Assembly: GCA_943736015.1 (NCBI GenBank) | Contig: OX031070.1 | Span: 41,750,173-41,814,172 of the forward strand | Origin: Tridacna crocea | Taxonomy: Eukaryota; Mollusca; Bivalvia; Cardiida; Cardiidae | Reading direction: 5' to 3' | DNA: 64,000 nucleotides | Part shown: in pieces, positions 11,893 to 52,507 of the stretch | Numbering within the stretch: the first letter of the stretch is position 1 | How the letters are laid out: each line of letters starts with the position of its first letter | Position numbers and translations under genes: made by a program | Notes under the pieces: generated by a model | The model's input: only the letters and a program-made list of their open reading frames with translations | The model's database searches: none | Told to the model about the DNA's origin: nothing

Positions 11893-12121
11893 TTAACTCA
11901 TTACCATACAATACTGACTTTTAACGACCTTGAGAAAGACGCCTTTTGAAAACATTGTGGGAAAAGGAGAAAATGCTGGTAACCAGCATTTTCTCCTGTT
12001 CCCACAATGTTTTCTGCCCTTTCCAAATCAAATTTCAATTTTTGTTTCAAATTTAATTAGTTGTCTGCAAATGCTTTCAGTTTGGACCAGTCCAAAATTT
12101 TATGGTTTGGTAAAGAGTTAA
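11893..12121 (+). mobile_element. Family A MITE, complete, inserted in a family A left end
   Basis: Directly preceded by the left-end fragment TTACCACACAATCTCCAG-TTTAA (11869-11896) of an older copy, cut at its internal TTAA. Core nearly perfect (CTCCTGTTCCC). Confidence 0.8.
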
Positions 12122-12994
12122 CCCCACCAAACAACAAAATTTTAGACTCCTCCAAATCAAAAGCATTTGCAGACGACAGAATAAAAGTGACTGAAAATTT
12201 GAAATTTGTTGTATAAAGGGTAGAAAACATTGTGGGAAAAGGAGAAAATGCTGGTTACCAGCATTTTCTCCTTTTCCCACAATGTTTTCAAAAGGCTACC
12301 ATTCGAGACCTGTAAAAACCTGGGATTGTTTGGGAAAGGGTTAACTCTACCAAACAACGAAATTTTAGACTCCTCGAAATTGAAAGAATTTGCAGACGAC
12401 AGAATAAAAGTGACTGAAAATTTGAAATTTGTTGTATAAAGGGTAGAAAACATTGTGGGAAAAGGAGAAAATGCTGGTTACCAGCATTTTCTCCTTTTCC
12501 CACAATGTTTTCAAAAGGCTACCATTCGAGACCTGTAAAAACCTGGGATTGTTTGGGAAAGGGTTAACTCTACCAAACAACGAAATTTTAGACTCCTCGA
12601 AATTGAAAGAATTTGCAGACGACAGAATAAAAGTGACTGAAAATTTGAAATTTGTTGTATAAAGGGTAGAAAACATTGTGGGAAAAGGAGAAAATGCTGG
12701 TTACCAGCATTTTCTCCTTTTCCCACAATGTTTTCAAAAGGCTACCATTCGAGACCTGTAAAAACCTGGGATTGTTTGGGAAAGGGTTAACTCTACCAAA
12801 CAACGAAATTTTAGACTCCTCGAAATTGAAAGAATTTGCAGACGACAGAATAAAAGTGACTGAAAATTTGAAATTTGTTGTATAAAGGGTAGAAAACATT
12901 GTGGGAAAAGGAGAAAATGCTGGTACCAGCAATGTTTTTGAAAGGCTTCTATCTCAGGGTTGTAAAAACCAGGGATTATTTGGTAATGGGTTAA
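12118..12994 (-). repeat. Tandem array of four family A units, period 223 bp
   Basis: Units start at TTAA 12118, 12341, 12564 and 12787, head to tail, each pair sharing one TTAA. Units 2 and 3 are identical by eye, and the left part of unit 4 matches them. Unit 1 differs slightly, and unit 4 has lost the right palindrome arm (GGTACCAGCAATG). All have the CTCCTCGAAATTGAAAG or CTCCTCCAAATC arm and GTTTGGGAAAGGG end. Identical spacing and sequence indicate unequal crossing-over or replication slippage rather than separate insertions. Confidence 0.9.
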
Positions 12995-13430: not shown

Positions 13431-15440
13431 ACCTTGTGTACGCTCTAGAGGCCACAGTTTTAGTCGGATACTCATGAAAATTGGTCAGGATGTTTGTCTC
13501 GATGAATTCTCGGACGAGTTCGAAAATGGGTCATGTGGGGTCAAAAACTAGGTCACTAGGTCAAATATTAGAAAAACCTTGTGTACGCTCTAGAGGCCAC
13601 ATTTTGAGTCGGATACTCATGAAAGTTGGTCAGGATGTTTGTCTCGATGATATCTCGGACGAGTTTGAAAATGGGTCACGTGGGGTCAAAAACTAGGTCA
13701 CCAGGTCAAATCTTAGAAAAACCTTGTGTACGCTCTAGAGGCCACATTTTCAGTCGGATACTCATGAAAGTTGGTCAGGATGTTTGTCTGGATGATATCT
13801 CGGACGAGTTCGAAAATGGGTCACGTGGGGTCAAAAACTAGGTCACCAGGTCAAATCTTAGAAAAACCTTTTGTACGCTCTAGAGGCCACATTTTCAGTC
13901 GGATACTCATGAAAGTTGGTCAGGATGTTTGTCTGGATGATATCTCGGACGAGTTCAAAAATGGGTCACGTGGGGTCAAAAACTAGGTCACCAGGTCAAA
14001 TCTTAGAAAAACCTTTTGTACGCTCTAGAGGCCACATTTTCAGTCGGATACTCATGCAAGTTGGTCAGGATGTTTGTCTGGATGATATCTCGGACGAGGT
14101 CGAAAATGGGTCACGTGGGGTCAAAAACTAGGTCACCAGGTCAAATCTTAGAAAAACCTTTTGTACGCTCTAGAGGCCACATTTTCAGTCGGATACTCAT
14201 GAAAGTTGGTCAGGATGTTTGTCTGGATGATATCTCGGACGAGGTCGAAAATGGGTCACGTGGGGTCAAAAACTAGGTCACCAGGTCAAATCTTAGAAAA
14301 ACCTTTTGTACGCTCTAGAGGCCACATTTTCAGTCGGATACTCATGCAAGTTGGTCAGGATGTTTGTCTCGATGATATCTCGGACGAGTTTGAAAATGGG
14401 TCACGTGGGGTCAAAAACTAGGTCACTAGGTCAAATCTTAGAAAAACCTTTTGTACGCTCTAGAGGCCACATTTCCAGATGGATACTCATGAAAGTTGGT
14501 CAGGATGTTTGTCTGGATGATATCTCGGACGAGTTCGAAAATGGGTCACGTGGGGTCAAAAACTAGGTCACTAGGTCAAATCTTAGAAAAACCTTTTGTA
14601 CGCTCTAGAGGCCACATTTTCAGTTGGATACTCATGAAAGTTGGTCAGGATATTTGTCTGGATGATATCTCGGACAAGATCGAAAATGGGTCATGTGGGG
14701 TCAAAAACTAGGTCACTAGGTCAAATCTTAGAAAAACCTTTTGTAGGCTCTAAAGGCCACATTTTCAGTCCGAAACTCTTGTAAGTTGGTCAGAATGTTT
14801 GTCTTGATGATATCTCAGACAGGTTTGAAAATGGGTCATTGGGGGTTAAAAACTAGGTCACCAGGTCAAATCTTAGAAAAACCTTGTATATGCTCTGGAT
14901 GCCACATTTTCAGTCCAACACTCTTGAAAATTAGTCAGAATGTTTGCCTTTATAATATCTTGGATGAGTTTGAAAATGGGTCATGTTGGGTCAAAAACTG
15001 GGTCAATAGGTCAAATGTTATAAACACCTTTTGTATGCTCTGGAGGACACATTTTCAGTCTGATACTCCTAAAACTTGTTCATTATATTTGTCCTGGTGA
15101 TACCTTGAATGAGATTGAAAATGGGTCATGTGGAGTCAAAAACTAGGTCAATGGGTCAAATATTAGAAAAACCTTGTGTACACTCTAGAGGCTACATTTT
15201 CTGCCTGATATTCTTCAGACTTGGTCAGAATGTTTGTTTTGGTGATATCTCAAAAGAGTTTGATAATGGGTAATTGTCGGGTCCAAAACTAGGTCACTTG
15301 ATGAAATCTTAGAAAAACCTTTTGTACACTGTAGAGGCCACATTTTCAGTCCAATACTCATGAAACTTGGCCAGAATGTTTGTCTTATTGATATCTCAAA
15401 AGTGTTTGATGATGGGTAATGTCTGATAAAAAACTAGGTC
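13431..15440 (+). repeat. 145-bp minisatellite, about 14 units
   Basis: Units begin ACCTTGTGTACGCTCTAGAG and contain GGTCAAAAACTAGGTCAC; starts at 13431, 13576, 13721 and so on. Units up to about 14860 are nearly identical; the last four diverge progressively toward the 3' end. Overlapping 71- to 86-codon frames here arise because 145 is not a multiple of 3, and they are not genes. Confidence 0.9.
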
Positions 15441-15588
15441 ACTGGGAAACTAGATGGTGCATGTTTGGTCAATAAACTCAGGTGAGCGATTTCAGGGCCA
15501 TCATGGCCCTCTTGTCTCCTTTTTCCACAATGTTTTCGAAAGGCTACTATTCCAGACCCGTAAAAACCAGGGATTGTTTGGGAAAGGG

Positions 15589-35706: not shown

Positions 35707-35862
35707 TAGAACTCTTTACCACACAATTCCGACTTTTAACGACCCTGAGCAAGAAGCCTTTTGAAAACATTGGAGGAAAAGGAGAAAATGCTAATGCTGG
35801 TTACCAACATTTTCTCCTATTTCCACAATGTTTTCAATAGCTTTCCTTCTCAGGGAAACATG
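35707..35862. mobile_element. Family A derivative with two left-type arms
   Basis: Left arm GACCCTGAGCAAGAAGCC, core with a duplicated ATGCTA, then inverted left-arm sequence GCTTTCCTTCTCAGGG. Confidence 0.55.
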
Positions 35863-36408: not shown

Positions 36409-36716
36409 AAAAGCATTATGTTATGATGGAATGCTGGTAACAAGCATTTTCAATTTGTCTTGCCACAACTTATTTTAGTCCTATCAAAGATATGAAGAGA
36501 AAATAGAGGAAATAAAACAAGGTTTAAGAGTTAATGGTTTGAAGACCAAAGGGGGAAGGGTCATTCCATTATGGCATAGTTTTGTTTACTTAATAGCTTG
36601 ACTATAATTTAATCTAAAAACAGAATGCAAACAAATAATCTCCCTTTTCAAAAAAAACCCGGCTTTCAAACCTTTCTTTGGTGATAAGATAAAAAATATT
36701 TAACCCTTAACTCTTT

Positions 36717-36935
36717 ACCACACGAGAAAATTTTGGACTGGTCCAAATCGAAAGCATTTGCAGACGACAAAATAATGGTGACTGAAAAATAGAAATTTGT
36801 TCTGGGAAGGGTAGAAAACACTGTGGGAAAAGGAGAAAATGCTGGTTACCAGCATTTTCTCCTTTTCCCACAGTGTTTTCAAAAGGCTTCTATCTCAGGG
36901 TCATAAAAACCAGGGGTTGTTTAGTAAAGGGTTAA
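36717..36935 (-). mobile_element. Family A MITE, complete
   Basis: Perfect core with paired CACTGTG / CACAGTG change. Confidence 0.85.
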
Positions 36936-37043
36936 AGCACCTTTCACAGCTACAGTTACCTTTGCAACCAGAGTAGATCTAAAACATGAAGCCTGATTTT
37001 CGATCTACTCTGGCCTCTTTGTTGAAACACTGAGGATATTTAA
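36932..37043. mobile_element. Family C MITE, shortened variant
   Basis: CCAGAGTAGATC / GATCTACTCTGG palindrome between TTAAs; a symmetric variant of the GTGTAGATC core. Confidence 0.55.
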
Positions 37044-37754: not shown

Positions 37755-38207
37755 TTAACCCTTACCAAACAACAAAATTGTAGACTTGTCCAAATTAACC
37801 CCTTACCCCATAAGGCATTTCTTTTGTATCTCTAACTGACCCTAAATAACAGCAAGGATGAAGCTGTTTCTCATGTGTATATGATACCTTTTGATGGCAT
37901 AGAAAACATTGTGGCAAAAGGTGAAATTGCTCGTCAGGAGCAATTTCACCTTTTGCCACAATGTTTCCCAAAGGCTCCTACATGCAATGCGTAGAAATAA
38001 GTATCTATGGAGTAAAGGGTTAAAAGCACTTTCAGACAACAAAATAAACACAACTCAAAAATTGAAATTTATTACCAGCAGGGTAGAAAATATTGTGGGA
38101 AAAGGAGAAAATGCTGGTTACCAGCATTTTCTCCTTTTCCTACAATGTTTTCAAAAGGCTTCTTTATCAGGGTTGTAAAAGCCAGAGATTGTTTGGTAAA
38201 GGGTTAA
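37755..38207 (-). mobile_element. Family A MITE interrupted by family B
   Basis: GACTTGTCCAAA-TTAA-[B]-TTAA-AAGCACTTTCAG: the host arm resumes exactly after the B copy. Core intact; ends GTTTGGTAAAGGGTTAA. Confidence 0.85.
37795..38023 (-). mobile_element. Family B MITE nested in family A
   Basis: Complete, with perfect core GTGGCAAAAGGTGAAATTGC and TTAA duplication at a TTGA-to-TTAA mutated site of the host arm. Confidence 0.9.
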
Positions 38208-39466: not shown

Positions 39467-39750
39467 CACCATTTTCAACATTATTTCAGTTACATCACTG
39501 CGACCAGCGCACCTATCCATGCTTTCCTGGAGTTTCTGCTACCAGTGCTCTGTACAGTATTCTTTCCATACCACTGGCTGCTTTTCTAGATAACCATTGT
39601 CAAAGCAACGATCAGCGGTTGGAGAGGAATGATTCCTGTCGCAATGACTATCGTCAATCCTCGGAAAGAAATTGGCCGAGCCGGGGATCGAACTCACGAC
39701 CCTCTGTTCTCAAGTCCTTTTCGCTACCGACTGGGCTACCAGGGCACGGC
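39467..39750 (-). mobile_element. tRNA-headed SINE (SINE1), best copy
   Basis: On the minus strand: CCTGGTAGCCCAGTCGGTAG contains A-box TAGCCCAGTCGG. GAGTTCGATCCCCGG is the B-box. Then come AATTTCTTTCCGAGG, CTCCAGGAAAGCATGG and ATAATGTTGAAAATGGTG. The element stops at a TTAA occupied by a family A copy, so its ATCA-rich tail is missing. About 280 bp. Confidence 0.8.
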
Positions 39751-39876: not shown

Positions 39877-39961
39877 GGGATTTGGTTTTGTAACATATAA
39901 AGATCCAAATAGTGTAGATCAATGTTTAGAGAATGGACCTCATATACTAGATGGTAAACAA
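39877..39961 (+). CDS. msi: Internal coding exon, end of RRM1 of a Musashi-like RNA-binding protein
   Basis: An 85-bp exon lies between a polypyrimidine tract with acceptor CATTACAG and the donor GTAAGT. Its first base completes a codon begun in the previous exon (an Arg would fit). The next 28 codons read GFGFVTYKDPNSVDQCLENG followed by PHILDGKQ. GFGFVTY is the RNP1 motif of an RNA recognition motif, whose aromatic residues stack on RNA bases; the tail matches the last beta strand and C-terminal edge of RRM1. The reading frame continues without a break into the exon at 47255. The family binds short UAG-containing sites in mRNA and controls translation in the cytoplasm (family knowledge). 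The segment before LDG also resembles DAZAP1/Hrb27C, so the Musashi call rests mainly on the next exon. Upstream RRM1 exons were not found in this window. Confidence 0.8.
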
Positions 39962-40005
39962 GTAAGTAAATCATAAATCTATCTTTATGACAACCTGTTT
40001 TAAAT

Positions 40006-40234
40006 GTTACCTCTATACCAAACGACAATTTAAGACAGGTGTAAATTGAAAGCACTTGCAGAAGACAAAATAAAGGTAACTCAAAAATTGAAAGTTATTT
40101 TCCAATAGGGTAGAAAACATAGTCGGAAAAGGAGAAGATGCTGGTAACCAGCATCTTCTCCTTTTCCCACTATGTTTTCAAAAGGCTTCTATCTCAGAGT
40201 TGTAAAAACCAATGATTGTTTGGTAAAGAGTTTA
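40006..40234 (-). mobile_element. Family A MITE with symmetric core changes
   Basis: Arms read CATAGT...GAGAAGATGC and GCATCTTCTC...ACTATG: two departures from consensus, each matched in the other arm. Left TTAA lost (TTAC). Confidence 0.85.
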
Positions 40235-40236
40235 CT

Positions 40237-40428
40237 CAGAGGTCTAAATAGAGGGAGTGGTTTTGATCTTAAAATTGAAGATGTTAATTATTTTCCACTA
40301 AACCCTATCATGTGGGTACTCTTTAGAATCGTCTAATCGAGACGGTTCTAACAAGTACCCACACCATAGGGTTTTGAAGAGAAATGAAGACTTTAGAATA
40401 CAATCACTCTCTCTTATCTGGAGCTCTG
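40237..40428. mobile_element. Family D fold-back element
   Basis: CAGAGGTCTAAATAGAGGGAG / CTCTCTTATCTGGAGCTCTG ends; inner palindrome GTGGGTACTCTTTAGAATCG / GTTCTAACAAGTACCCAC. Its right end abuts the TTAA of the next family A copy. Confidence 0.75.
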
Positions 40429-40657
40429 TTAACTCTTTACCACATAAGAAAATTTTAGACAGGTCCAAATTGAAAGCATTTGCAGATGACAAAATAAAGG
40501 TGACTTAAAAATAGAAATTTGTTCTGGGAAGGGTAGAAAACACTGTGGGAAAAGGAGAAAATGCTGGTTACCAGCATTTTTTCCTTTTCCCACAGTGTTT
40601 TCAAAAGGCTTCTTTCTCAGGGGCATCAAAAGTAGGGATTGTGTGGTAATGGGTTAA
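40429..40657 (-). mobile_element. Family A MITE, complete
   Basis: CACTGTG / CACAGTG paired variant; both TTAAs. Confidence 0.85.
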
Positions 40658-40794
40658 CTCTTTACAAAACAACATATGCCTGTGATTTTGTTGACTGGTA
40701 AAGAACGAGCTGTATAGAGGTTACTAAACCTATTTGTACCCCACGGTGGATGACATATCTTTTACAACACAACCCGACCATGAAAAAAAAGATA

Positions 40795-40988
40795 ATTTTA
40801 CACTAGTCCAAACTGAAAGCATTTGCAGACATAAAAAAAATAAAACAACGATTACGTAATCGCTGTTTAAAAATGTGATCCAAACATTTTGTTTCATTTT
40901 TGTAGGGGTAAAAACCATTGAAATTGTAGACTGCAAAAGCTTTCAGTTTGGACAAGACTAAATTTTTTCATCTGGTAAAGGGTTAGAG
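40795..40988. mobile_element. Family A-like ends around a different palindrome
   Basis: ACTAGTCCAAACTGAAAGC and GCTTTCAGTTTGGACAAGAC are right-type arms in inverted orientation. Between them is ACAACGATTACGTAATCGCTGT instead of the usual core. Ends GGTAAAGGGTTA. Confidence 0.5.
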
Positions 40989-41211
40989 AGCCTAAATAGG
41001 CAATAGGCTGGTTAAAAAAATGAAATTAAGATAGAATCTTAATGGCCCTTGAACTGTCATTTAGTGATCTAAATTGTTGTTTCAATTGGGGTTTTGTCTA
41101 CCAATTTAATCCTTGCCATAGATAAATGGCCTAAATTCTGAACCACGGATGAAAACTTGAGTTGGGTCCATTTTGAAAGGGTATGCAAACAATTTGTTCC
41201 TTTAACCCTTT

Positions 41212-41398
41212 AGTGCACAATGACTTCTTTTTATGTCCCTGTGGAAGAAGCCTTTTGAACCAGCATTTTCTCCAGTTCCCACAAAGTTTCCTACCATATC
41301 AAAGCAAAATTGCACCATTTGAGCCACTTTGAAATTGTCGTCTGCAAATGCTTTCAATTTGGATAGGTCTAAAATTTTGTTGTGTGGTAACAAGTTAA
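41212..41398 (+). mobile_element. Family A MITE, left palindrome arm deleted
   Basis: GCCTTTTGAACCAGCATTTTC; both TTAAs. Confidence 0.8.
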
Positions 41399-41589
41399 TA
41401 AACAACCCTATGTTGTAGCAATCCTGATTTGTAAAGCTTTAGAAAAAAAAGTGTGGGGAAAAAGGGAAAATGCTGGTAACTAGCAGTTTCTTCTGTTTGC
41501 AAAATTTAATAGATTGTAGGCAAATGCTATCATACTAGATTCAATTTGTTGTCAGCAAATGCTTACAATTTAGATGTTTACCACCATTT

Positions 41590-42028
41590 TTACCTCACCT
41601 GAGCACGAAATGCTTATGGTGAGCTATTGTGGTTTTGCTGTATCCGTTGTCAACTTTTTACATTCTAAAGGCCACATTGTTCGACCGATACTCATGAAAC
41701 TTGCTCAGAATGTTTGTATAGAGTTCGCAAATGGGTCATATAGGGTCAAAAACTAGGTCACTAGGTTAAATCTTAGAAAAATCTTGTGTATGCTCTAGAG
41801 TTCACATTTTTTGTCCAAAACTCCTGAAAGGTCATCAGAATTTTTGCCTTGATTGAAAGTGGGTCATGTTGTGTCAAAAACTAGTTTGCAAGTGGGTCAT
41901 TTCGGGACAATAAGTCATGAAAATCTTGGTAGAATGTTTGTCATAATATCTCAAAAGAGATTGAAAATGGGTCATGTTTGGTCAGATTACTCAGGTGAGC
42001 GATTTCAGGGCTATAATGGTCCTCACGT
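41590..42028 (+). mobile_element. Second Helentron-like element, short
   Basis: 5' CCTCACCTGAGCACGAAATGC hairpin and 3' CTCAGGTGAGCGATTTCAGG with AGGGCTATAATGGTCCT hairpin. About two decayed units of the 145-bp repeat lie inside. Flanked by CACCATTTT on the left and CATTTTGCCACAATATTTTC on the right, i.e. broken family A palindrome arms. Confidence 0.7.
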
Positions 42029-42108
42029 CTTCATTTTGCCACAATATTTTCATGAGCCCTGCTCCTCAAGGTCATTAAAGCTCATGGCTGTGTGGGTAAA
42101 GGGGTATT
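42029..42108 (-). mobile_element. Family A right-hand remnant of the host copy
   Basis: GCCACAATATTTTCATGAGC ... GTGTGGGTAAAGGGG. Confidence 0.6.
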
Positions 42109-42169
42109 TAGGTGGATTTGCTTGCTGTGAGCAGTCTGGTCTTGATCTTGACTGAGACAGTAATTGGTC

Positions 42170-42392
42170 TTAATTCTTTACCACACAATTCTGACTTTTC
42201 ACGACCCTGAGAAAGAAGCCTTTTGAAAACATCATGGGAAAAGGAGAAAATGCTGGTAACCAGCATTTTCTCCATTTCCCACAATATTTTCTACTCTTCT
42301 CTTCGCAAATTTTCAGTCACTTTTATTTTGTCATCTGCAAACTCTTTCAGTTTGGACCAGTCTAAAATTTTGTTCTTTGGTATAAGAGTTAA
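42170..42392 (+). mobile_element. Family A MITE, complete
   Basis: Core with ATCATGGG on the left and CTCCATTTCCC on the right; both TTAAs. Confidence 0.8.
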
Positions 42393-42835
42393 GTTATATT
42401 CTGGTACATCACGGAGAAATGGGAGTGTAAAAAACAAGTTCAGTGATGGTCATATAGAAGAACTGTTCAATGCATCACCATAACAAATGTATGACTTATA
42501 TGACAGTTCACATCACTTAAATCAGGCACAAGACAGTAATAAATGGATGTACAGAAACTGTAATCAAATCATAAATTGCAAGTCTGGGCCACCTCTCCCA
42601 AGTACAAAATAGAGAATATTTGTTATTTTTGGGGGTGTAAGAACAAAATTTATTTGAGTGAACATGAGAAGTAATATTTTTATGGGTTATACAGCCAAAT
42701 AAAAAATATTACACCCCCCCCCCCCAAATGTCCTGTGTAAAGAAATATTGTTGCATACGGACTAGGTGGATCTTTAGGTCCAAGATCAATGTATACTTGA
42801 CCAACATTGTTAGGCAAAAGTAAATAATATTGTGC
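42393..42835. other. Unrecognised, with one imperfect inverted repeat
   Basis: TTTTTGGGGGTGTAA (42625-42640) is inverted near 42709 as TTACACCCCCCC; the 90-bp span could be a small fold-back element. Confidence 0.35.
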
Positions 42836-43063
42836 TTAACCCATTACCACACGATCCCTACTTTTGATGACCCTGAGAAAGACACCTTTAGAAAACATTG
42901 TGGGAAAAGGAGAAAATGCTGGTAACCAGCATTTTCTCCTTTTCCCACAGTGTTTTCTACATTTCACAAAGCAAATTTCAAATTTTCAGTCACTTTTATT
43001 TTGTCATCTGCAAATGCTTTTGATTTGGACAAGCCTAAAATATTGTTGTTTCGTAATGAATTA
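42836..43063 (+). mobile_element. Family A MITE
   Basis: Left TTAA, perfect core up to CACAGTG; right end decayed to GTAATGAATTA. Confidence 0.85.
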
Positions 43064-43103
43064 GTACTGAAATACTGATAGGTGTAAGGGAGAGAAGTCA
43101 TTG

Positions 43104-43157
43104 TCCACTGGTCAAGATCTGACCACTGTTAAAAGGTCAGTCTTGATTCACTGGACA
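43104..43157. repeat. Imperfect hairpin
   Basis: GTCCACTGGTCAAGATCTGAC pairs with GTCAGTCTTGATTCACTGGAC; possibly related to family C but not to its ends. Confidence 0.45.
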
Positions 43158-43288
43158 AGAAAATAAACAGTCCTTTGTCAATCATTGGTCAAGTCATTTA
43201 TGTGCACCAATATTGTCTGACCAAGTCAGGTGCACCCTTCTCCAAATGATCTCATATTTTAGTGACTCTGATGGCCTGGTAACCAGTA

Positions 43289-43478
43289 TTATACCCCCAC
43301 AAAATGAATTTTTTCGAGCTTATACTGGAATCAGCTTGTCTGTCCGTGTGTCTGTCCATGTGTTGAGTTTGTGTGTCTGTCTGTGTACAAAATACCAGTA
43401 ACCAATAATTGTCTCACTGTTTCTGTCAAAGTGCTGGCAGGTGTATTAAGTCACATTTTGTGACAGCTCTAGTTTCTC
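43289..43478 (+). mobile_element. Short copy of a TATACCCCC...CTGTCCGTGTGTC element
   Basis: Starts TTATACCCCCACAAAATG, has CTGTCTGTCCGTGTGTC and GTGTACAAAAT, ends TGTGACAGCTCTAGTT. The same order recurs at 54963-55490. Confidence 0.6.
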
Positions 43479-43539
43479 CTTTTCATAGCAACAGGATTAA
43501 TTTCTCCCTCGTTTATGCTGATCAGTCGTCCAGTAAGGA

Positions 43540-43770
43540 TTAAGTCTCTTTACAAACAACCCCTGGTTTTCACATCCCTGAGAAAGAAGCCTTCTGAAAA
43601 CATTGTGGGAAAAAGAGAAAATGCTGGTAAAAGCAGCATTTTCTCCTTTTCCCACTATGTTTTCTTCCCTTCCCAAAACAAATTTCAGTTTTTGAGTCAT
43701 GTTCATTTTGTTGTCTGCAAGTTCTTTCAGTTTAGACTAGTCTAAGCTTATGTTGTTTGGTAAAAAGTTA
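43540..43770 (+). mobile_element. Family A MITE
   Basis: Left TTAA; loop expanded to GGTAAAAGCAGC; right end AAAAAGTTA. Confidence 0.8.
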
Positions 43771-43796
43771 TGCAGGAAAATGGCCATGGGCTTGAG

Positions 43797-43915
43797 AAGA
43801 TTATTGTGAATTCCTCAGGTAACAGAAACTCCAGGAAAACATGGACAGATGCACTGGTCAGGATAATGGTGGAAACAGTGTCTAATACCATTAAAGTAAT
43901 CAATCATCAATCAAG
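43797..43915 (+). mobile_element. SINE1 3' fragment
   Basis: AACTCCAGGAAAACATGG ... GGTGGAAACAGTGTC ... ATCAATCATCAATCAA: body end plus ATCA-type tail. Confidence 0.6.
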
Positions 43916-44095
43916 CATTTTCTTTTTGTGTTACTCTAAATTTCTTCAGTTAAGTTCTTCGGCAGTTTCATTGCCCTGAGGGCTAGCCATGGTGTTATAT
44001 AATTGTAGATCATGCTCAGACTGGAAACTGGAACCATGCAGTCCTAAATCATAAAGGCCCCAAAAAGAACTGTGGTATCATGGCTGATGGTCTGA

Positions 44096-44280
44096 GCCCA
44101 TATTCACCAACCATTTTTAAGAACGTTCTTTTGTCTTATTCTTCAGAATTTTCTACATTTGCAAGTAACACAACTTCTGATTGGCTAAACCATTTGGTTT
44201 AGCCAGTCAGAAGTTGTGTTTTAGCAAGCCTTGGAGAATAAGACTAAGAATATTCTACGGAATGGTTGGTGAATATGGGC
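44096..44280. mobile_element. 185-bp fold-back MITE
   Basis: Ends GCCCATATTCACCAACCATTT / AATGGTTGGTGAATATGGGC are inverted. The centre ACACAACTTCTGATTGGC / GCCAGTCAGAAGTTGTGT forms a second palindrome. No TTAA; target duplication not obvious. Confidence 0.75.
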
Positions 44281-44659
44281 ACTGGTCTTGCAGGGGCTTG
44301 ATCACTTGACCTTACGTTCTGGCAAAGCTCACTTAGCTTCAGAATCAGAGTTAGTCCACCTTATCTTTAGGATATACCTCTAAATATTGTGATATGAGGG
44401 AAATTAAACAGCATGTGAGAAAAAAAAAAGGTGGAAAAAAATGTTTATTCTAATGTCCAATAGATCATACATTTCCACTACCACTTTGATTGGACATTGT
44501 ATGGGCAATGTACACATAGTTTATTAGCTTTTCTGATGGACAAATAGACCAAATATTTACTGTTATAAATTAACACTCACAGTGGTGGAACCAAGTTGCT
44601 GTGGGGATCAGTATAGGTTGAGATTAGACTACAGAATAAGGACCCTTCATAAAAGGTCA

Positions 44660-44882
44660 TTAAGCCCTATACCATACAGTTTGACATTTTAGTAATCCAG
44701 ATGACGAAGTCTTAAAAAAAAAGTATTGTGAGAAAGGGGGAAAATACTGGTAACCAGCATCTCCGCCTTCTTCCACCGTGTTTTCTCTCAATCCACATAT
44801 AATTCAGTCAATTTAGTTGCATTTAATTTTTGTCTGCAGACATTGTCAGTTTGGATACATATAAAATTTTGGGTAAGAGTTA
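44660..44882 (+). mobile_element. Family A MITE, decayed
   Basis: TTAA left; core GAAAATACTGGTAACCAGC with a poor outer stem. Confidence 0.6.
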
Positions 44883-45104
44883 GCAGTTACTGAGTGCCTA
44901 AACCAATTTGTATTGCTTTTGTGGCTATTATAGGTCAAGATCAGAATGCACAGAACTTGGACTCTTTCTAAAAATGTAATAGATGCAACACAAGGGCACA
45001 TAGTTACTTATTGCCGAAAGACTTTGCACTATTGTAGATTTACATGGCCAACATTAAACTAGTAGTATGAAAGGCAGTGAAAAAGAAAGTGTAACTTCAT
45101 CAAT

Positions 45105-45251
45105 TTAACCCTTTACCAAACAATCCCTGCTTTATACGACCTTGAGATAGAATTCCTTCGAAATCATTGTGGGAAACAAATTTCACTTTTTGAGTAACAT
45201 TTATTTTGTCTTCTGCAAATGCTTTCAATTTGTCGTTTGGGAAAGAGTTAA
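45105..45251 (+). mobile_element. Family A MITE lacking the palindrome
   Basis: CATTGTGGGAAACAAATTTC: the copy passes from the start of the left arm straight to the right flank. Both TTAAs kept. Confidence 0.75.
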
Positions 45252-45475
45252 TAATTTGAACCAGACACTTCCATGTTTTAATGACCCTTTGGAAAAGGGC
45301 CTTTAAAAATATAGGGAAAAAAAAGAAAATGCAGAGTGACCAGCAATTTCTCTTTTTCCCACGATGTTTTCTGCCTGTCCCAAAACAAATTTCTATTTTT
45401 TGAGTCACTTTAACTTTGTGGTGTGCTAATGCTTTCAATTTGGACCAATCTAAAATGTAGTCTGGTAGGGAATGA
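45252..45475 (+). mobile_element. Family A MITE, decayed, plus a following half-copy
   Basis: Core AAAAGAAAATGCAGAGTGACC; right arm good. A minus half-copy (45480-45575) follows. Confidence 0.6.
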
Positions 45476-45860
45476 AGTGTAAGTGAAATGATTATTTTTT
45501 TGTTTGAAAGGGTAGAAAACATTGTGAAAAAAGGAGAAAATGCTGGTTTCTAGCATATTGCAGGGTCATTAGGAATAGCTTGCACAGTAATCGATGAAAA
45601 GACTGATGCTTCCACAAATTCTCCCTTCTAGTAGCGTGAATATTCTTGCATGAGGAAACATGTTTCGGATCAACAATAGAGTTTTTACCCCCAATGTAGG
45701 CCTCTTTTAGTCTAAGAGAACACAGGAAGGGGGCTTAAGTTTTCACAAACATTTTAATATTTACATATTTATTCAATATAAAAAGCAAACAGTTACATCA
45801 CAAAAGCAGCATTCGATTTTCGTATTTACAGGTGTTTGCTTGCGATCAACAGTAGGGGAA

Positions 45861-46093
45861 TTAACTCTTTACTACGCAATCCTGACTTATAAAGACCTTG
45901 AGAAAGTAGCCTTTGGAAAACATTGTGGGAAAAGGAGAAAATGCTGGTAACCAGCATTTTCTCCTTTTCTCACAATGTTTTCTACCCTTCCCAAAGCAAA
46001 TTTTTTATTCTTTAGCCGTAAGCTAGTTTGTCTCTGCAACTGCTTTCAAGAAGTCTGACAAGTTTGAAATGTTGTTGTGAGGTAAAGAGTTAA
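45861..46093 (+). mobile_element. Family A MITE, complete
   Basis: Both TTAAs; nearly perfect core. Confidence 0.85.
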
Positions 46094-46437
46094 AAGGGAG
46101 GTGGCTCTAACCTACTATTTCATGTTCGTATTAAAAGTTCCATTTTTAGTCTTTAGACCTCAGAGTTGACGTTGAGAAGGTGCTGGATCTACATTCATTT
46201 TTTTTTCCAACTCAGCTTCGCCTGATAATATTATTATCATTCAACAGACTGTATTTTTAAAGCATTGTGGCAAAACACGAAATATTGTGGCAAAAAGAGA
46301 AATTATTTGCTCAATCTACTATAATTTGTCTACTTTTATTCATGTACTGGATTTAGATTCATGGGGCACAAAAATCTCTTACCAGGTTGTGGTGTCTTCT
46401 AAAGACTGTGTGCTGCAAAGTTTTGACAGGAGTTAAA
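46094..46437. other. No clear feature
   Basis: Two imperfect ATTGTGGCAAAA repeats near 46265-46300 may be family B core remnants. Confidence 0.3.
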
Positions 46438-46706
46438 GTCGAACTCTTTACCAGTGGACAGAATTTTGGGCTGGTCAAAAGTGAAAATTTTGTAATTTGT
46501 TAAAAGTGGCTCAAAGGATGGGGTTTGACTTGGTAACAGAAAATATTGTGGGAAAAAGACAAAATTCTTGTTACCAGCATTTTTTGATGTCCTAAAATGT
46601 TTTCTACTTTTTCAAAGACAAACCTGATCATTGTAGCCATATGGAACTTGTCATCTGCAACTGCTTCAATTTGGAGAAGTTTCTAAATCTGTTACCTGGT
46701 AAAGAT
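46438..46706. mobile_element. Family A derivative with two right-type arms
   Basis: GAATTTTGGGCTGGTCAAAAG (inverted right arm) and CTGCAACTGCTTCAATTTGG (right arm) flank a decayed core. Confidence 0.5.
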
Positions 46707-47254
46707 AGATATAGGAGTTTGCCATGGACTTCTTTACTGGCAAAACTTAGTAGCCTATACCGGTTTGACTAACTTGTACTTGTTATTCTAGTTTTTTTTT
46801 TTTACGATCAAACAGCGGCAATAATTGCTGTCACTTGTGGTGACGAGAGAAGGAGCATAAGCGGTGAACTGCATCATCTTTTCACGAGCCTTGTCCGTCA
46901 CCTTGGACCTAATTATTACAGCCCTTTTTATTCATCCTTTGTGATAGATTCATACTGTGTCTATATAAATACATCTAGTGACTCTAATTGGGACGGTTTT
47001 TATTTGACAATATTTCGATTTTTGTCCCTACTTTGCGTGGACCTTTCTTTGTACTGCTATTCATCCCATAGTTCATACTTGAACATATGTTTGCTCAAGG
47101 TAGTGCTTGTTCAGGGAGTTATACAAAGTGAAAATTATTGAATTAGACTTGTGATTAACAGTGAAGAGAGTGGTAGTTGTTGTTGTCCCAATAGTGTTTT
47201 ACGATTCATAAACATTGTATAAAGATGGAGAATGTTTATTATGTCTATCCGCAG
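46707..47254. other. Non-repetitive intron sequence upstream of the microexon
   Basis: One of the longer stretches free of family A. Contains a poly(T) run then ATCAAACAGCGGCAATAATTG, with more G and C than usual. May hold splicing control sequence for the 42-bp exon (inference). Confidence 0.4.
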
Positions 47255-47296
47255 GTGGATCCTAAAGTTGCATTTCCAAGAAAAGCACAGCCAAAG
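47255..47296 (+). CDS. msi: 42-bp coding microexon, RRM1-RRM2 linker of the Musashi-like protein
   Basis: The acceptor CTATCCGCAG precedes 14 codons reading VDPKVAFPRKAQPK, followed by the donor GTGAGT. The frame is phase 0 on both sides and joins directly to the end of the exon at 39877-39961. DPKVAFPR-AQPK is the characteristic Musashi sequence at the end of RRM1 and start of the linker to RRM2; DAZAP1 and hnRNP A/B proteins differ here. The exon is very short and sits between a non-repetitive stretch (46707-47254) and a family A copy that begins 66 bp after the donor. The next expected exon (start of RRM2) was not seen before the end of the window, so the downstream intron exceeds 16.7 kb. 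Confidence 0.8.
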
Positions 47297-47361
47297 GTGA
47301 GTACATGTTTAAATGTATTTCCAATAGTTCCATTTTTAAGTCATAACCCCTCTGAAACTTC

Positions 47362-47590
47362 TTAACTCACTACCAAATGACAATATTTTAGACTGGTCCA
47401 AATTGAAAGCATTTGCAAATGACAAAATAAAAGTGACTGAAAATTTGAAATTTGTTTTCTGAAGGGTAGAAAACATTGTGGGAAAAGGAGAAAATGCTGG
47501 TTACCAGCATTTTCTCCTTTTCCCACAGTGTTTTCTAAAGGCTTCTTTCTCAGGAGCGTCAAAAGTAGGGATTGTCTGGTAATGGATTAA
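47362..47590 (-). mobile_element. Family A MITE, complete
   Basis: Perfect core apart from CACAGTG; both TTAAs. Confidence 0.85.
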
Positions 47591-47850
47591 GCCCCCTTTT
47601 TCCAGAGCATGGCTCATAAAGATTTGGCTTATGAACTCCACTTTGAATATACAGTCCACCCAAGCCCGGTTAGGTCTCATGTTATATGCATGGTTAAAAG
47701 TGGATGGCATATGTCCAAGATAGGTCTGTGTGTTTTGTGCAGTCTGATCCTGATCTGTGCCATATGCAATTGCTCATTAAATGCCTAAGTTACTCAAAGG
47801 GTTGAGTGATGATAGGATTAAGATACAGATTAAGATACATATATGTGTGT

Positions 47851-48043
47851 CAGAGCTCCAGATAGAGGGAGTGATTTTGATTTAAAAATCAAAAATATCA
47901 ATCATTCTCCACTAAATCCTATGTTGTGGGTGCTCATTAGAATTGTCTCATCGAGACAATTCTAATGAGTACCCACTTACATGGGGTTTGGAGGAGAAAT
48001 AATGGATTTAGAATACCATCACTCCTTCTTATCTGGAGCTCTG
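47851..48043. mobile_element. Family D fold-back element, best copy
   Basis: CAGAGCTCCAGATAGAGGGA / CTTCTTATCTGGAGCTCTG. Central palindrome GTGCTCATTAGAATTGTCTC / ACAATTCTAATGAGTACC. Flanks TATGTGTG and TATGTGAT could be an imperfect 8-bp duplication, which with CAGAG ends would fit hAT (weak). Confidence 0.75.
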
Positions 48044-48304
48044 TATGTGATGACAAATTGATTTCATTATTTCTATGGGCAAGAAGTCCTTTTGTCACAC
48101 CTTTATACATGATAATAATGTTCAATATGTTGGAGATGATTTACTGGAGTGCTTTGTTCATCTTGCACTGTCTTTTCAGTCTGATATTGATCTATGTTAT
48201 ATGAAATAGCAACTGTGGTTGTGACAGGAGCAATTTTAGATTTGAAGAGAACCTAAAAAATACTGAGATTCTGAGTATTTTTTTTGTCAGTGTTTTCAAC
48301 TCAT

Positions 48305-48655
48305 TGCACTCTTTACCACACAGCAAAAATGAATGAATATACTGTATGTCCAATCCCACTGCATTTGCAGATGACAAATTAACTGTTGCTCTAAGTTGGA
48401 AATTGTCTGTAATAGGTTAGAAAGCATAGCTAAAAAGAAGTTTCTCCTGCTCCAGTAATGTTTTCAGAAGCCGTCTTCTTCTAGGTTGTTAAAACTCTGG
48501 ATATCAAGCTGGTATCCAGTGTCTTCTCCTTTTCCCATGATGTTTTTCTTCTATATCAAAAACAGAAATCCCCGTTTGAGTTACATTTCCTATGTTGTCT
48601 GCACATGCTTCTAATTTGATATGATGTCCAAAATTTTGTTTGGTGTTAAAGGGTT
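48305..48655. mobile_element. Decayed family A copies
   Basis: Minus remnant to 48505 and plus right half with GTTGTCTGCACATGCTTC to 48655. Confidence 0.5.
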
Positions 48656-48972
48656 CGGATTACCTCTCTTGTTGTCTGTACAATCAGTACAATTTTTTTT
48701 GTCCTACACACATTTTGCAATTAGCATTATGTGATGTCATTATGTGATGTCACATTTTGCACTTTATTTGGAAAAGTTGTGTTATATCCATATAGTTACC
48801 ACATTATACATTTATAGTTTTGCATATTCTGACCTATGACTCATGAAATATTGTTATGTGATAAAAGAAATCTGGCATTTGTTGGCCTTTGAGGTAAATT
48901 TTCATTTAACATGCCCGCAAAAATGTTATTAAACTCACTGGAGGCTTGCATAATATCATTTTCCTGGACTCT
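48656..48972. other. No recognised feature
   Basis: Contains a small ATTATGTGATGTC tandem duplication (48725-48752). Confidence 0.35.
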
Positions 48973-49201
48973 TTAACGCTTTACCACACAATCCCGACTT
49001 TTAACGACCCTAAGAAAGAAGCCTTTTGAAAACACTGTGGGAAAAGGAGAAAATGCTGGTAACCAGCATTTTCTCCTTTTCCCGCAGTGTTTTCTACCGT
49101 TCCCAAACCAAATTTTAATTTTTCAGTCACCTGTATATTGTTGTCTGCAAATGCTTTCAATTTCAACCAGTCTAAAATTTTCTCGTGTGGTAAAGTGTTA
49201 A
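48973..49201 (+). mobile_element. Family A MITE, complete
   Basis: CACTGTG / GCAGTG outer variant; both TTAAs. Confidence 0.85.
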
Positions 49202-49663
49202 ATAAAATTCTATCTCAAATGTAACGGCATATTAGATCCTATGTATCTCGGGCTGTTTTTCCACAAATTGTCGTAAGGTAGTCTCGTCAGCTGTCGTGAG
49301 TAATGCAAAGATCTTTATATGAAGAAAAGGAAGGGGTTGACTGACTGTTCAGGTGTGTTGATAGACATATGTTTTAGAAGCTTGTCATAAATACGTATAA
49401 TGAACTTGGATAGATCATGAACATGTACACAAGAATGATAGATGGCCCTTTCTGGTAATATATCCAATTTGTTCAGACAATTGTTGTATAAGTCATCGTA
49501 TAGTTGGTGTTTATGTATCGATAATAGAGGAAAACTTTAGAGGCAAAATACCTGGGACATCATTTTGATACAAGCATTTGTATGATCTGATTGAAAATTT
49601 GACAGTGTTGCCCCGTGTAAGCATACGACTTAGTATTGCAGTGACATGAGATAGAAAAGTTAT
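49202..49663. other. No recognised feature
   Basis: Repeat-free by eye; no exon borders with a recognisable protein. Confidence 0.35.
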
Positions 49664-49891
49664 TTAACCCTTTACCACGCAATCCCTACTTTTGACAACC
49701 CTGAGAAAGAAGCCTCTTGAAAACATGGTGGAAAAAGGAGAAAATGCTGGTAACAAGCATTTTCTTCTTTACCCAAAATGTTTTCTTTTGTTCCAGAAAC
49801 AAAGTTCAATTTATCAGTTGCATTTATTTTGTCGTCTGCAATTGCTTTCAATTTGGACTAGTCCGAAAGTTGTCGTTTGGTAAAGGATTAA
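49664..49891 (+). mobile_element. Family A MITE, complete
   Basis: Core with GGTAACAAGC and CTTCTTTACCC; both TTAAs. Confidence 0.8.
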
Positions 49892-50002
49892 GACCATGTG
49901 GGAAGATGAGAAAATGCTGGTCATAGCACTTTCTCCTTTTCCAACAGTGTTTTCTTTTTGTTCAGGCTTGATAAAACTCGGGTTTGTGTGGTAAAGAGTT
50001 AA
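49892..50002 (-). mobile_element. Family A MITE, left-truncated
   Basis: Starts in the core (CCATGTGGGAAGATGAG) and ends GTGTGGTAAAGAGTTAA. Confidence 0.65.
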
Positions 50003-50558
50003 AAAGAAGCTCAAGTAAGAAGTAAATATCTTATGTTATAACAAAGATATAAAAAAAAGTCGACGTTTTTGCACAATCATGCAGAAGCTGACGCATATGA
50101 TGATGACGGGGCAACAGTGACACAGTATCGGTACCTTGAGGTTTTCTTGGAAGACTGTCAGCCGAAAAATGGCTTTATGCTGGATAAAAAAAAATATGAA
50201 GTTTTCTGTTGGTGGCTAGGTATATGTAGATGAAATTGAAAAACTGAAAGAAAATTAAATGAATTCTGTGTGCATAATCGTGTGAAAAGCACAGCATCTA
50301 CATATAAAGAGGTATTGAAATGGAGTTGCCAAAACCTTTACAATTGAGTTGAATAGGTCTTTCAACTGGGTTTTTAAGTCTGAAGTTTTTCGTGTGAAAA
50401 TTTGTAGTATACATTCTTCGCGGCTAAGTTTTGAAATTTATGCAATTGAAATTAATGTGCATCTTAATATTTTGATAAACTGATGTTTATAGTGTATGAG
50501 ATCTGTATGGTAACTCTTCACCAATTAAAAAAGAATTAACCAGTGTCCTGCTAAATAA
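50003..50558. other. No recognised feature
   Basis: Longest block after 49202 free of family A cores. No frame or motif recognised. Confidence 0.35.
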
Positions 50559-51012
50559 TTAACTCTTTACCACACAGTCCCGACTTTTAACGACCCTGAG
50601 AAAGAAGCCTTTTGAAAACACTGTGGGAAAAGGAGAAAATGCTGGTAACCAGCATTTTCTCCTTTGCCCACCATGTTTTCTACCCTTCCCAAGCCAAATT
50701 TTCCCTTTTCAGTCACCTTTATTTTGTCGTCTGCAAATGCTTTTAACCCTTTACTCCATAGATACTCATTTCTACGCATTGCTTGTATGAGCCTTTGGAA
50801 GACATTGTGGCAAAAGGTGAAATTGCTTGTGACGAGCAATTTCACCTTTTGTCACACTGTTTTCTATGCTATCAAAAGGTGCCATATACACATAAGAAAT
50901 GACTTCATCCTTGCTGTTATTTAGGTTCAATTAGAGATACCAAAGAAATGCCCTATGGGGTAAAGGGTTAAATTGGATTAGCCCAAAATTTTCTCGTGTG
51001 GTAAAGAGTTGA
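50559..51012 (+). mobile_element. Family A MITE interrupted by family B
   Basis: CTGCAAATGCTT-TTAA-[B]-TTAA-ATTGGATTAGCCC: the right arm resumes after the insert. Right TTAA decayed to TTGA. Confidence 0.85.
50743..50971 (+). mobile_element. Family B MITE nested in family A
   Basis: Complete. Core GTGGCAAAAGGTGAAATTGC / GCAATTTCACCTTTTGTCAC. Inserted at the same host position as the copy at 37795. Confidence 0.9.
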
Positions 51013-51033
51013 AACTAAATTTTCAATTCAGCA

Positions 51034-51248
51034 TTAACCCTTTACCAAACAATCCTGACAACAAAATTTTAGATGAGGCCAAATTGAAAGCATTTGCTGG
51101 CAACAATTTGAACATGTCTCAATTTATGAAATTTGTCCCTGAGAGGTTAGAAAATATTGCGGGAAAAGGAGAAAATGCAGATTACTTTTCTAAAGGCTTT
51201 TTCTTGACCTAGGTTGTTAATATTCTGGATTGTGTGGTAAAGGATTAA
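51034..51248 (-). mobile_element. Family A MITE, palindrome half lost
   Basis: GGAGAAAATGCAGATTAC then CTAAAGGC; both TTAAs. Confidence 0.75.
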
Positions 51249-51593
51249 AGACAAATGAAAGCAATTTCCATTGTATTTCTTAATGGTTTTTGCCTTTCTT
51301 GAAGTGGACATTCCAAAAAAAGTGATGGAAAATACTTCTAAAAACCTTGTTTACATATTTATCCTGTATTTTACGCTGCATTAAAGTTTCCCTCCTTTTT
51401 TCTCTCTGGCAAAAATCTACTTTATCAATTTCAAAGGTAGTAACCTTTTTAGCAAAACCTAATGAACCAAAATACATCTGTTTTTGTAATTTTTTTCTCT
51501 CTCCCATGTTTTCACCAATTTCTTGGCTAGGAGAGTGGTACAATTTAGACATTACCTCATGAAAGAATTTTGCTGTAGACAAATGTAAAAATA
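51249..51593. other. Unrecognised stretch with a 100-codon minus frame
   Basis: The frame 51582-51280 (minus) is lysine-rich with no motif I recognise and no splice or promoter support; probably chance. Confidence 0.25.
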
Positions 51594-51780
51594 TCCTTTA
51601 CCACACGATCCCGACTTTTAATGACCCTGAGAAAGAAGCCTCTTGAAAACTATGTGGGAAAAGGAAAAAATGCTGGTAACCAAAGATAAGGTCTATCATT
51701 AAAGCTCCCTCTAAATTGTCGTCTGCAAATGGTTTGAGTTTGGACAAGTCTAAAATTTTGTTGTGTCGGAAAGAGTTTAA
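51594..51780 (+). mobile_element. Family A MITE, right palindrome arm deleted
   Basis: GCTGGTAACCAAAGATAAGG; left TTAA lost. Confidence 0.7.
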
Positions 51781-52006
51781 ATTTGTACCTAATAGCAAGA
51801 ATTTTGATTTGTCCTAATTGAAAGCTGTTGCAGATGAAAAAATTAAATGTGGTTAAAGTGATGAAACTTGTGACTGAAAGGACAGAGAACATTGTGGGAA
51901 ATGGAGAAAATGCTGGTTACCAGCATTTTCTCCATTTCCCACAATATTTTCAAAAGGATGAAATTTCAGGGTTGTAAAAACCAGGGATTGTTTGGTAAAG
52001 GGTTAA
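51777..52006 (-). mobile_element. Family A MITE with symmetric core change
   Basis: GGGAAATGGAG in one arm and CTCCATTTCCC in the other: the same A-to-T change on both sides of one copy. Confidence 0.8.
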
Positions 52007-52181
52007 GTTCACACATAGATAGACTGCAGCACTGACCAGTTGCACAAATGGATAGTTGCACTGGCTGCCATGAATAGGGTAACAGAGATACGGCTTAGAT
52101 CATGTAACTATCAGACAAACTGAGATGTAGATACATCATTGTGACCCTTGATATAGAGCAAGTACAAGAGCAAGTACACTT

Positions 52182-52507
52182 GTAATTCTTATTGGCATTT
52201 TCGGTGGTAATTCTGAATGGCATTTTTGGTGGTAATTCTGAATAACATTTTTGGTGGTAATTCTGATTGGCATTTTTGGTGGTAATTCTGATTGGCATTT
52301 TTGGTGGTAACTCTGGTTGGGGTTTTTGGTGGTAACTCTGGTTGGCGTTTTTGGTGGTAACTCTGATTGGCGTTTTCGGCGGTAATTCTGATTGGCATTT
52401 TCGGCGGTAATTCTGATTGGCATTTTCGGCTGTAATTGCGATTGGCATTGTTTACAGTAATTCTGATTGGTGTTTTCGGTGGTAATTCTGATTGGCGTTT
52501 TTGGTGG
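52182..52507. repeat. 25-bp minisatellite, about 13 units
   Basis: Unit GGTGGTAATTCTGATTGGCA + TTTTT or TTTTC. Sub-variants cluster (GGTAACTCTGG types in the middle, CGGCGG types later), a sign of local duplications. A small SINE1-like fragment (52030-52085) precedes it. Minus-strand frames (PIRITTKNANQNYHQ) are repeat artefacts. Confidence 0.9.

Follow-up and report, generated by a model that had tools for sequence, protein, structure and literature searches.

Paired changes in the palindromic core of a piggyBac-type transposon family of Tridacna crocea: probable founder inheritance with rare template switching

The window analyzed here is a 64,000-nucleotide stretch of the Tridacna crocea genome (assembly GCA_943736015.1, contig OX031070.1, positions 41,750,173 to 41,814,172 of the forward strand). 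It holds many copies of a near-perfect palindrome whose two arms, within single copies, depart from the consensus at matching positions, and the question raised by this locus is how both arms of one copy come to change together. The palindromes are the middle of one family of piggyBac-type miniature inverted-repeat transposable elements (MITEs) with TTAA ends. The paired changes are explained here, with a probability of about 0.7, by founder inheritance from symmetric source copies combined with rare template switching at the hairpin after insertion. The commoner paired differences are founder markers inherited from source copies. A small, low-rate component arising in place survives the controls, namely the arm shuffles, the flip of the central base, and a private double pair in the palindrome at 40113-40179. 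Positions given below are those of the window; the MITE copies located in it, their arms, and the tandem array of the MITE unit are on the forward strand.

The TTAA-ended element is about 223 to 235 bp long (235 columns in the element model, 223 bp as the unit of a tandem array) and holds the palindrome in its middle. It starts with TTAACYCTTTACCA and ends with TGGTAAAGGGTTAA, and these ends form its terminal inverted repeats. When the 351 copies were aligned, the TTAA columns on either side proved 92 to 100% conserved in those copies that extend to them. The core is a 67-bp near-perfect palindrome of two 33-bp arms around one central base, usually T; arm positions are numbered d1 to d33, where d is the distance from the central base. 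Folded as single-stranded DNA, five cores reached -30.5 to -39.1 kcal/mol, compared with shuffle means of -4.9 to -7.0 kcal/mol.

The 351 copies are profile matches in 244 kb, with fragments and related subfamilies counted as copies. The window contains 166 of them, and the other 185 lie in eighteen 10-kb samples, one piece taken at the 20-Mb mark of each large contig (40 to 77 Mb each), with 2 to 19 copies and 3 to 35% of bases per sample. The MITE load is extreme, at 49% of the window bases and a mean of about 19% in the samples. Extrapolation to the genome (1.05 Gb in 31 contigs) gives roughly a million copies. A nucleotide search of the genome with the repeat, by a program that passes over very frequent words, gave no match. 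The element is short and without coding capacity. The piggyBac-type transposase domain PF13843 has 118 genomic matches, many of them uninterrupted by stops, which are candidates for an autonomous partner of the MITE. No published account of this MITE family was found in the literature covered, mostly titles and the openings of abstracts.

Cores with gaps (173 of 351) were dropped for the count of paired changes. The remaining 178 gap-free cores, with 33 pairs each, gave 5,874 cells, of which 5,048 were consensus, 348 were changed in the left arm only, 343 in the right arm only, 34 in both arms without pairing, and 101 in both arms with pairing. Independent arms would give 26.2 paired cells. 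Paired double substitutions are therefore more frequent than independent mutation predicts, which was the check proposed in a first-pass annotation of this DNA. That annotation had also named a few subfamily founders as a source that alone might explain such pairs; this holds for 66 of the 101, but a residue remains after the founder markers are removed.

Five types account for these 66 paired changes: d26 T>C (23), d8 A>T (16), d3 G>C (13), d13 A>T (7), and d20 G>C (7). The share of the five nearest flank neighbours carrying the same change was 0.748 for d26, 0.709 for d3, 0.75 for d8, and 0.667 for d13, compared with 0.03 to 0.15 under permutation (d20 was outside this test). Among 219 copies, 124 variants lay no more than 35 bases from the centre, and 14 of these were clustered by descent (P ≤ 0.0025), as were 158 of the 383 variants in the flanks. 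Both sides of the five pairs made up 10 of the 14; the other four were the central T>C, the unpaired A>T at d27 of the left arm, and two variants at d34, just beyond the arms; within d1 to d33, the founder changes were 5 paired and 1 unpaired. Identical rows were removed in the counts of descent clustering, little-decayed copies, flank age, and arm shuffling only. These results indicate that the core rarely changed in source copies and that most such changes involved both arms, and they suggest that source copies with symmetric cores spread preferentially. In inserted copies, the non-founder changes were scattered and mostly one-armed.

Since 66 of the 101 paired changes track the flanks by descent, in-place correction is not their main cause, and it was rejected as the main source of paired changes. 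The arm-to-arm correction put forward in the first-pass annotation therefore fails for most of the pairs and keeps only the small in-place residue. Obligate correction at every transposition was also rejected, because the unpaired left d27 A>T was passed on (9 copies, several of them selected for a central A; 0 paired; neighbour share 0.50 versus 0.04).

The founder markers can be read in individual copies of the window. The MITE copies at 36706-36938 (palindrome 36814-36880) and 40428-40662 (palindrome 40536-40602) belong to the d26 T>C founder subfamily. The paired variants CACTGTG/CACAGTG, which had been noted as recurrent, correspond to the paired d26 T>C in these two palindromes, but the coordinates cited for them sit near the element starts. 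The copy at 37755-38024, of subfamily A2, carries paired d3, d8, d13, and d20 changes in its palindrome (37902-37968). The A and A2 cores had been described as differing at paired positions; they do so at these four, but two unpaired differences are present besides.

The central base was compared with the T sites of the arms. In copies outside A2 that had three or fewer unpaired positions (n = 127), the centre was T in 112, A in 12, C in 2, and G in 1, while the 4,826 arm T sites of the same copies showed T>A 36 times, T>C 34 times, and T>G 16 times. The T>A change was significantly more frequent at the centre than in the arms (12/127 versus 36/4,826; Fisher P = 1.5e-9). Genome-wide, the 23,766 exact oriented matches were divided by centre into 21,191 with T, 1,727 with A, 614 with C, and 234 with G. 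The resulting central A:C ratio of 2.8 exceeded that of the arms, both in young copies (36:34; P = 9e-5) and in all copies (137:169; P = 2e-23). Inversion of the spacer between the arms is thus seen as a statistical excess, in that T>A outnumbers both T>C and T>G, locally and genome-wide. In the unbiased set, central A (21 of 178 copies) showed no flank clustering (0.152 versus 0.113; P = 0.22). Central A occurred in both large flank groups, d34A (17/116) and d34T (9/62). The unbiased counts omit the copies selected for a central A, which lie at the centres of the fetched pieces L019 to L048, and the flip spectrum, A-clustering, and flank-age counts omit the A2 copies.

A flipped centre is also present in the copy that shows the arm changes most directly. 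The full MITE copy at 40006-40237, a profile match, holds the main palindrome at 40113-40179. Its left arm (40113-40145) carries d25 T>A at 40121, d22 G>C at 40124, and d9 A>G at 40137, and its right arm (40147-40179) carries the complementary changes of d9 at 40155 and of d25 at 40171. The d22 change is unpaired, and the central base at 40146 is A instead of the usual T of the family, so that the double pair coincides with a flipped centre. The two matched arm changes reported earlier for this copy were found again, but the unpaired d22 and the central A had gone unmentioned. The right arm of this copy, changed at d9 and d25 and otherwise exact, occurs on 17 arms genome-wide, its own included. 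None of the 16 other copies bearing this arm variant had the double pair in both arms; the opposite arm was unrecognizable in L054 and L055, and small length changes, read by eye, were present in L052, L060, L063, and L064. The flanks of the 16 carriers differed from those of the 40113 copy by 0.19 to 0.37. As far as this search can see, since it would miss any member in which both arms carry an additional change, the double pair is private and not a subfamily trait.

The second copy singled out in the first-pass annotation, at 51777-52008 (palindrome 51885-51951), has a paired d16 A>T at 51902/51934, as had been claimed in outline, but two further positions, d28 and d31, are changed without pairing. 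One other fetched copy with this pair (L065) has flanks differing by 0.37.

To obtain the pairing expected without in-place events, whole right arms were permuted within bins of right-arm change count in 215 copies, leaving out the A2 copies and d26. Non-founder paired changes numbered 42, compared with 29.5±4.9 after shuffling (P = 0.009). Copies with no more than three unpaired positions held 12 pairs versus 4.7 shuffled (P = 0.001), and those among them that also had a central A, 5 versus 0.72 (P = 0.001). The figure of 12 versus 4.7 replaces an excess of 12 versus 1.58 calculated for little-decayed copies, which was too high, since a selection by number of unpaired positions enriches for copies with pairs. 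The same bias affects the difference in pairs between A- and T-centred copies (Fisher P = 0.012). By flank-age tercile, pairs numbered 3 versus 0.9, 6 versus 3.3, and 26 versus 17.6 expected (total, 35 versus 21.8; Poisson P = 0.006). A first shuffle (35 observed; mean, 23.9; maximum, 40) was not decisive.

Genome-wide pairing checks at single positions gave mixed results. For d6 G>A, with the right arm and the inner left arm otherwise exact, 183 copies were changed in the left arm only with central T, 6 were paired with central T, and 1 was paired with central A. About 1.6 to 2 pairs would be expected from 183 of at most 21,191 copies, the same right-arm rate being assumed, not measured. Position d6 was changed in both arms at 251 places, and among the 50 listed, a hand tally gave 28 paired and 22 unpaired.

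Several results weigh against an in-place contribution and limit its size. The excess is modest, at 1.4-fold overall in the arm shuffle and 35 versus 21.8 across the terciles. It was not significant where a central T went with three or fewer unpaired positions (7 versus 3.6; P = 0.083), in copies with no unpaired position (2 versus 0.6) or at most one (4 versus 1.8; P = 0.12 each), or in copies with at least two pairs (3 versus 4.0; P = 0.79). The link between a flipped centre and pairing was absent in the more decayed A-centred copies (1 versus 2.8 in the mid group, 3 versus 4.1 in the old group) and not evident at d6 (1 A-centred and 6 T-centred paired copies). Among the 50 listed d6 places, the excess was present only in G>A (24 versus about 9), while G>T and G>C gave 4 versus about 5, the expectation for paired kinds being an estimate based on the unpaired ones. 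Correction of a general kind would not be expected to show such a limit, so this result speaks against it, and the d6 G>A excess may reflect a founder or mutational bias. At d16, 5,854 arms were changed; among 100 listed (98 copies), 1 copy was paired and 1 was changed in both arms without pairing, giving no clear excess, and a d16 pair was detectable only where both arms were otherwise exact. At the centre, C and G likewise exceeded the arm rates, which indicates that the centre changes more in general, yet A stands out. When the 25 copies selected for a central A were added, central A clustered weakly (P = 0.012; P = 0.0075), indicating that some A copies share descent, and none of the 22 copies of the d26 subfamily had a central A. 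For pairs other than that at 40113, small founder families may be the source.

The last points lead to the explanation by founders only, according to which all pairs, rare ones included, were inherited from small source families, A-centred copies descend from an old A-centred source, and nothing happened in place. The common pairs are clearly founder markers, and the absence of central A from the d26 subfamily and its weak clustering fit this explanation, as does its enrichment among flank-old copies (5/63, 6/63, and 12/63 from young to old; young and mid versus old, P = 0.03). It does not account well for the 16 carriers of the 40113 arm that lack its pair, for the central A in both large flank groups, or for the paired excess that persists in the arm shuffle with the markers removed, and we consider it unlikely. 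Recombination between copies is less likely still. Cores can pair in either orientation, and conversion or crossover between neighbours could swap arms and flip the centre; the copies are very dense, and a palindrome with the right-type flank on both sides exists (L021). Extended palindromes are rare, however, with 2 of 229 showing at least 16 of 26 further pairs, and one of these two (L004) consists of two elements end to end, leaving L021. Conversion would also be expected to return copies mostly to the consensus and not to give rise to private pairs.

Selection on each inserted copy for the hairpin, for instance as a small-RNA precursor or a protein-binding site, would lead to compensatory second mutations. 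The hairpins are stable and the paired changes exceed chance, as such selection predicts. Decay is mainly unpaired, though, with 691 one-arm changes versus 101 paired in the 178 cores, no Rfam family was found at gathering score anywhere in the window, and the T-to-A flip of an unpaired central base would not be predicted. This makes selection on inserted copies very improbable.

Under the preferred combination of founder inheritance and template switching, source copies keep a symmetric palindrome; a source lineage that changed in the core nearly always changed in both arms, and its offspring inherited the pair, a founder effect that was measured. The sources may have stayed symmetric because copies whose hairpin was intact spread more readily, or through chance fixation after an arm-correction event. 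After insertion, the hairpin or cruciform may at a low rate make DNA polymerase switch template. A switch across the centre would invert the single central base from T to A, and an arm copied from its partner would have an existing one-arm mutation either erased or made paired. Both the flip excess and the small surplus of non-founder pairs were measured; the polymerase step is suggested by the signature described in yeast (see below).

At any one locus template switching at a hairpin is a rare event, and this makes it difficult to measure. The MITE family offers 23,766 exact oriented matches that carry a one-base flip reporter, so that in a eukaryote germline the frequency of switching could be measured against that of point mutation. 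More tentatively, the MITE middle palindrome may be a natural recorder of germline template switching in which only symmetric-hairpin copies spread and the palindrome is part of amplification, an idea that we regard as possible but doubtful. If it is true, the central base reports each flip and the arm mismatches report each correction. The findings also raise the question of why the sources of a DNA transposon keep the central hairpin symmetric while the inserted copies decay.

Other repeats were observed in the window and the samples. The 223-bp unit of the MITE forms a head-to-tail tandem array at 12105-12931 (3.7 copies, 98% matches), perhaps a mobile element turning into a satellite. At 35743-35855, and around position 1540 of L021, palindromes continue beyond the core, with what looks like the right flank on each side, and foldback copying or recombination between copies is a possible origin. 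A different imperfect palindrome at 40291-40383 (44-nt arms, 80% complementary, 5-nt spacer), a candidate for the B core of the first-pass annotation, has by eye no evident likeness to the MITE core A, and a second family of palindromic cores (GCGCAGGCTGACC and similar) in L020, L024, L036, and L042 is not evidently related to it. Separate tandem arrays lie at 13431-15443 (145-bp unit, 13.9 copies) and 52182-52507 (25-bp unit, 13 copies). The segment at 39600-39750 resembles a short interspersed nuclear element derived from transfer RNA. An exon-like stretch at 39879-39964 encodes the end of an RRM domain (Pfam RRM_1; E = 0.0017, slightly short of the curated threshold).

MITEs of the piggyBac type are non-autonomous and target TTAA. 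The present family resembles them in having TTAA at both ends, terminal inverted repeats, a high copy number, and PF13843 domains in the genome. It differs from them in its separate 67-bp near-perfect central palindrome, which has fewer descent-clustered variants than the flanks.

The class of mechanism proposed here is already known; what is unusual is the size and readability of the natural data set. In yeast quasipalindromes, inversion of a short spacer together with homogenization of the arms is described as a signature of template switching (Abraham and Hazkani-Covo 2021, PMC8604942). The MITE core resembles these in its signs of arm homogenization and in a short spacer, set between perfect arms, that inverts repeatedly, but the yeast cases are single loci, whereas here one repeated element provides 23,766 exact oriented copies with a 1-base spacer. 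A similar likeness exists to the hairpins of RNA genes, which are made and maintained by template switching with paired changes in one event (Monttinen and Loytynoja 2022, PMC8794818); unlike those hairpins, the present one belongs to a non-coding transposon. Long inverted repeats of nematodes are under active maintenance and keep their symmetry more than their sequence (PMC1803023), which is likewise comparable. The nematode case concerns long repeats involving gene pairs, whereas the palindromes described here are carried by a mobile element.

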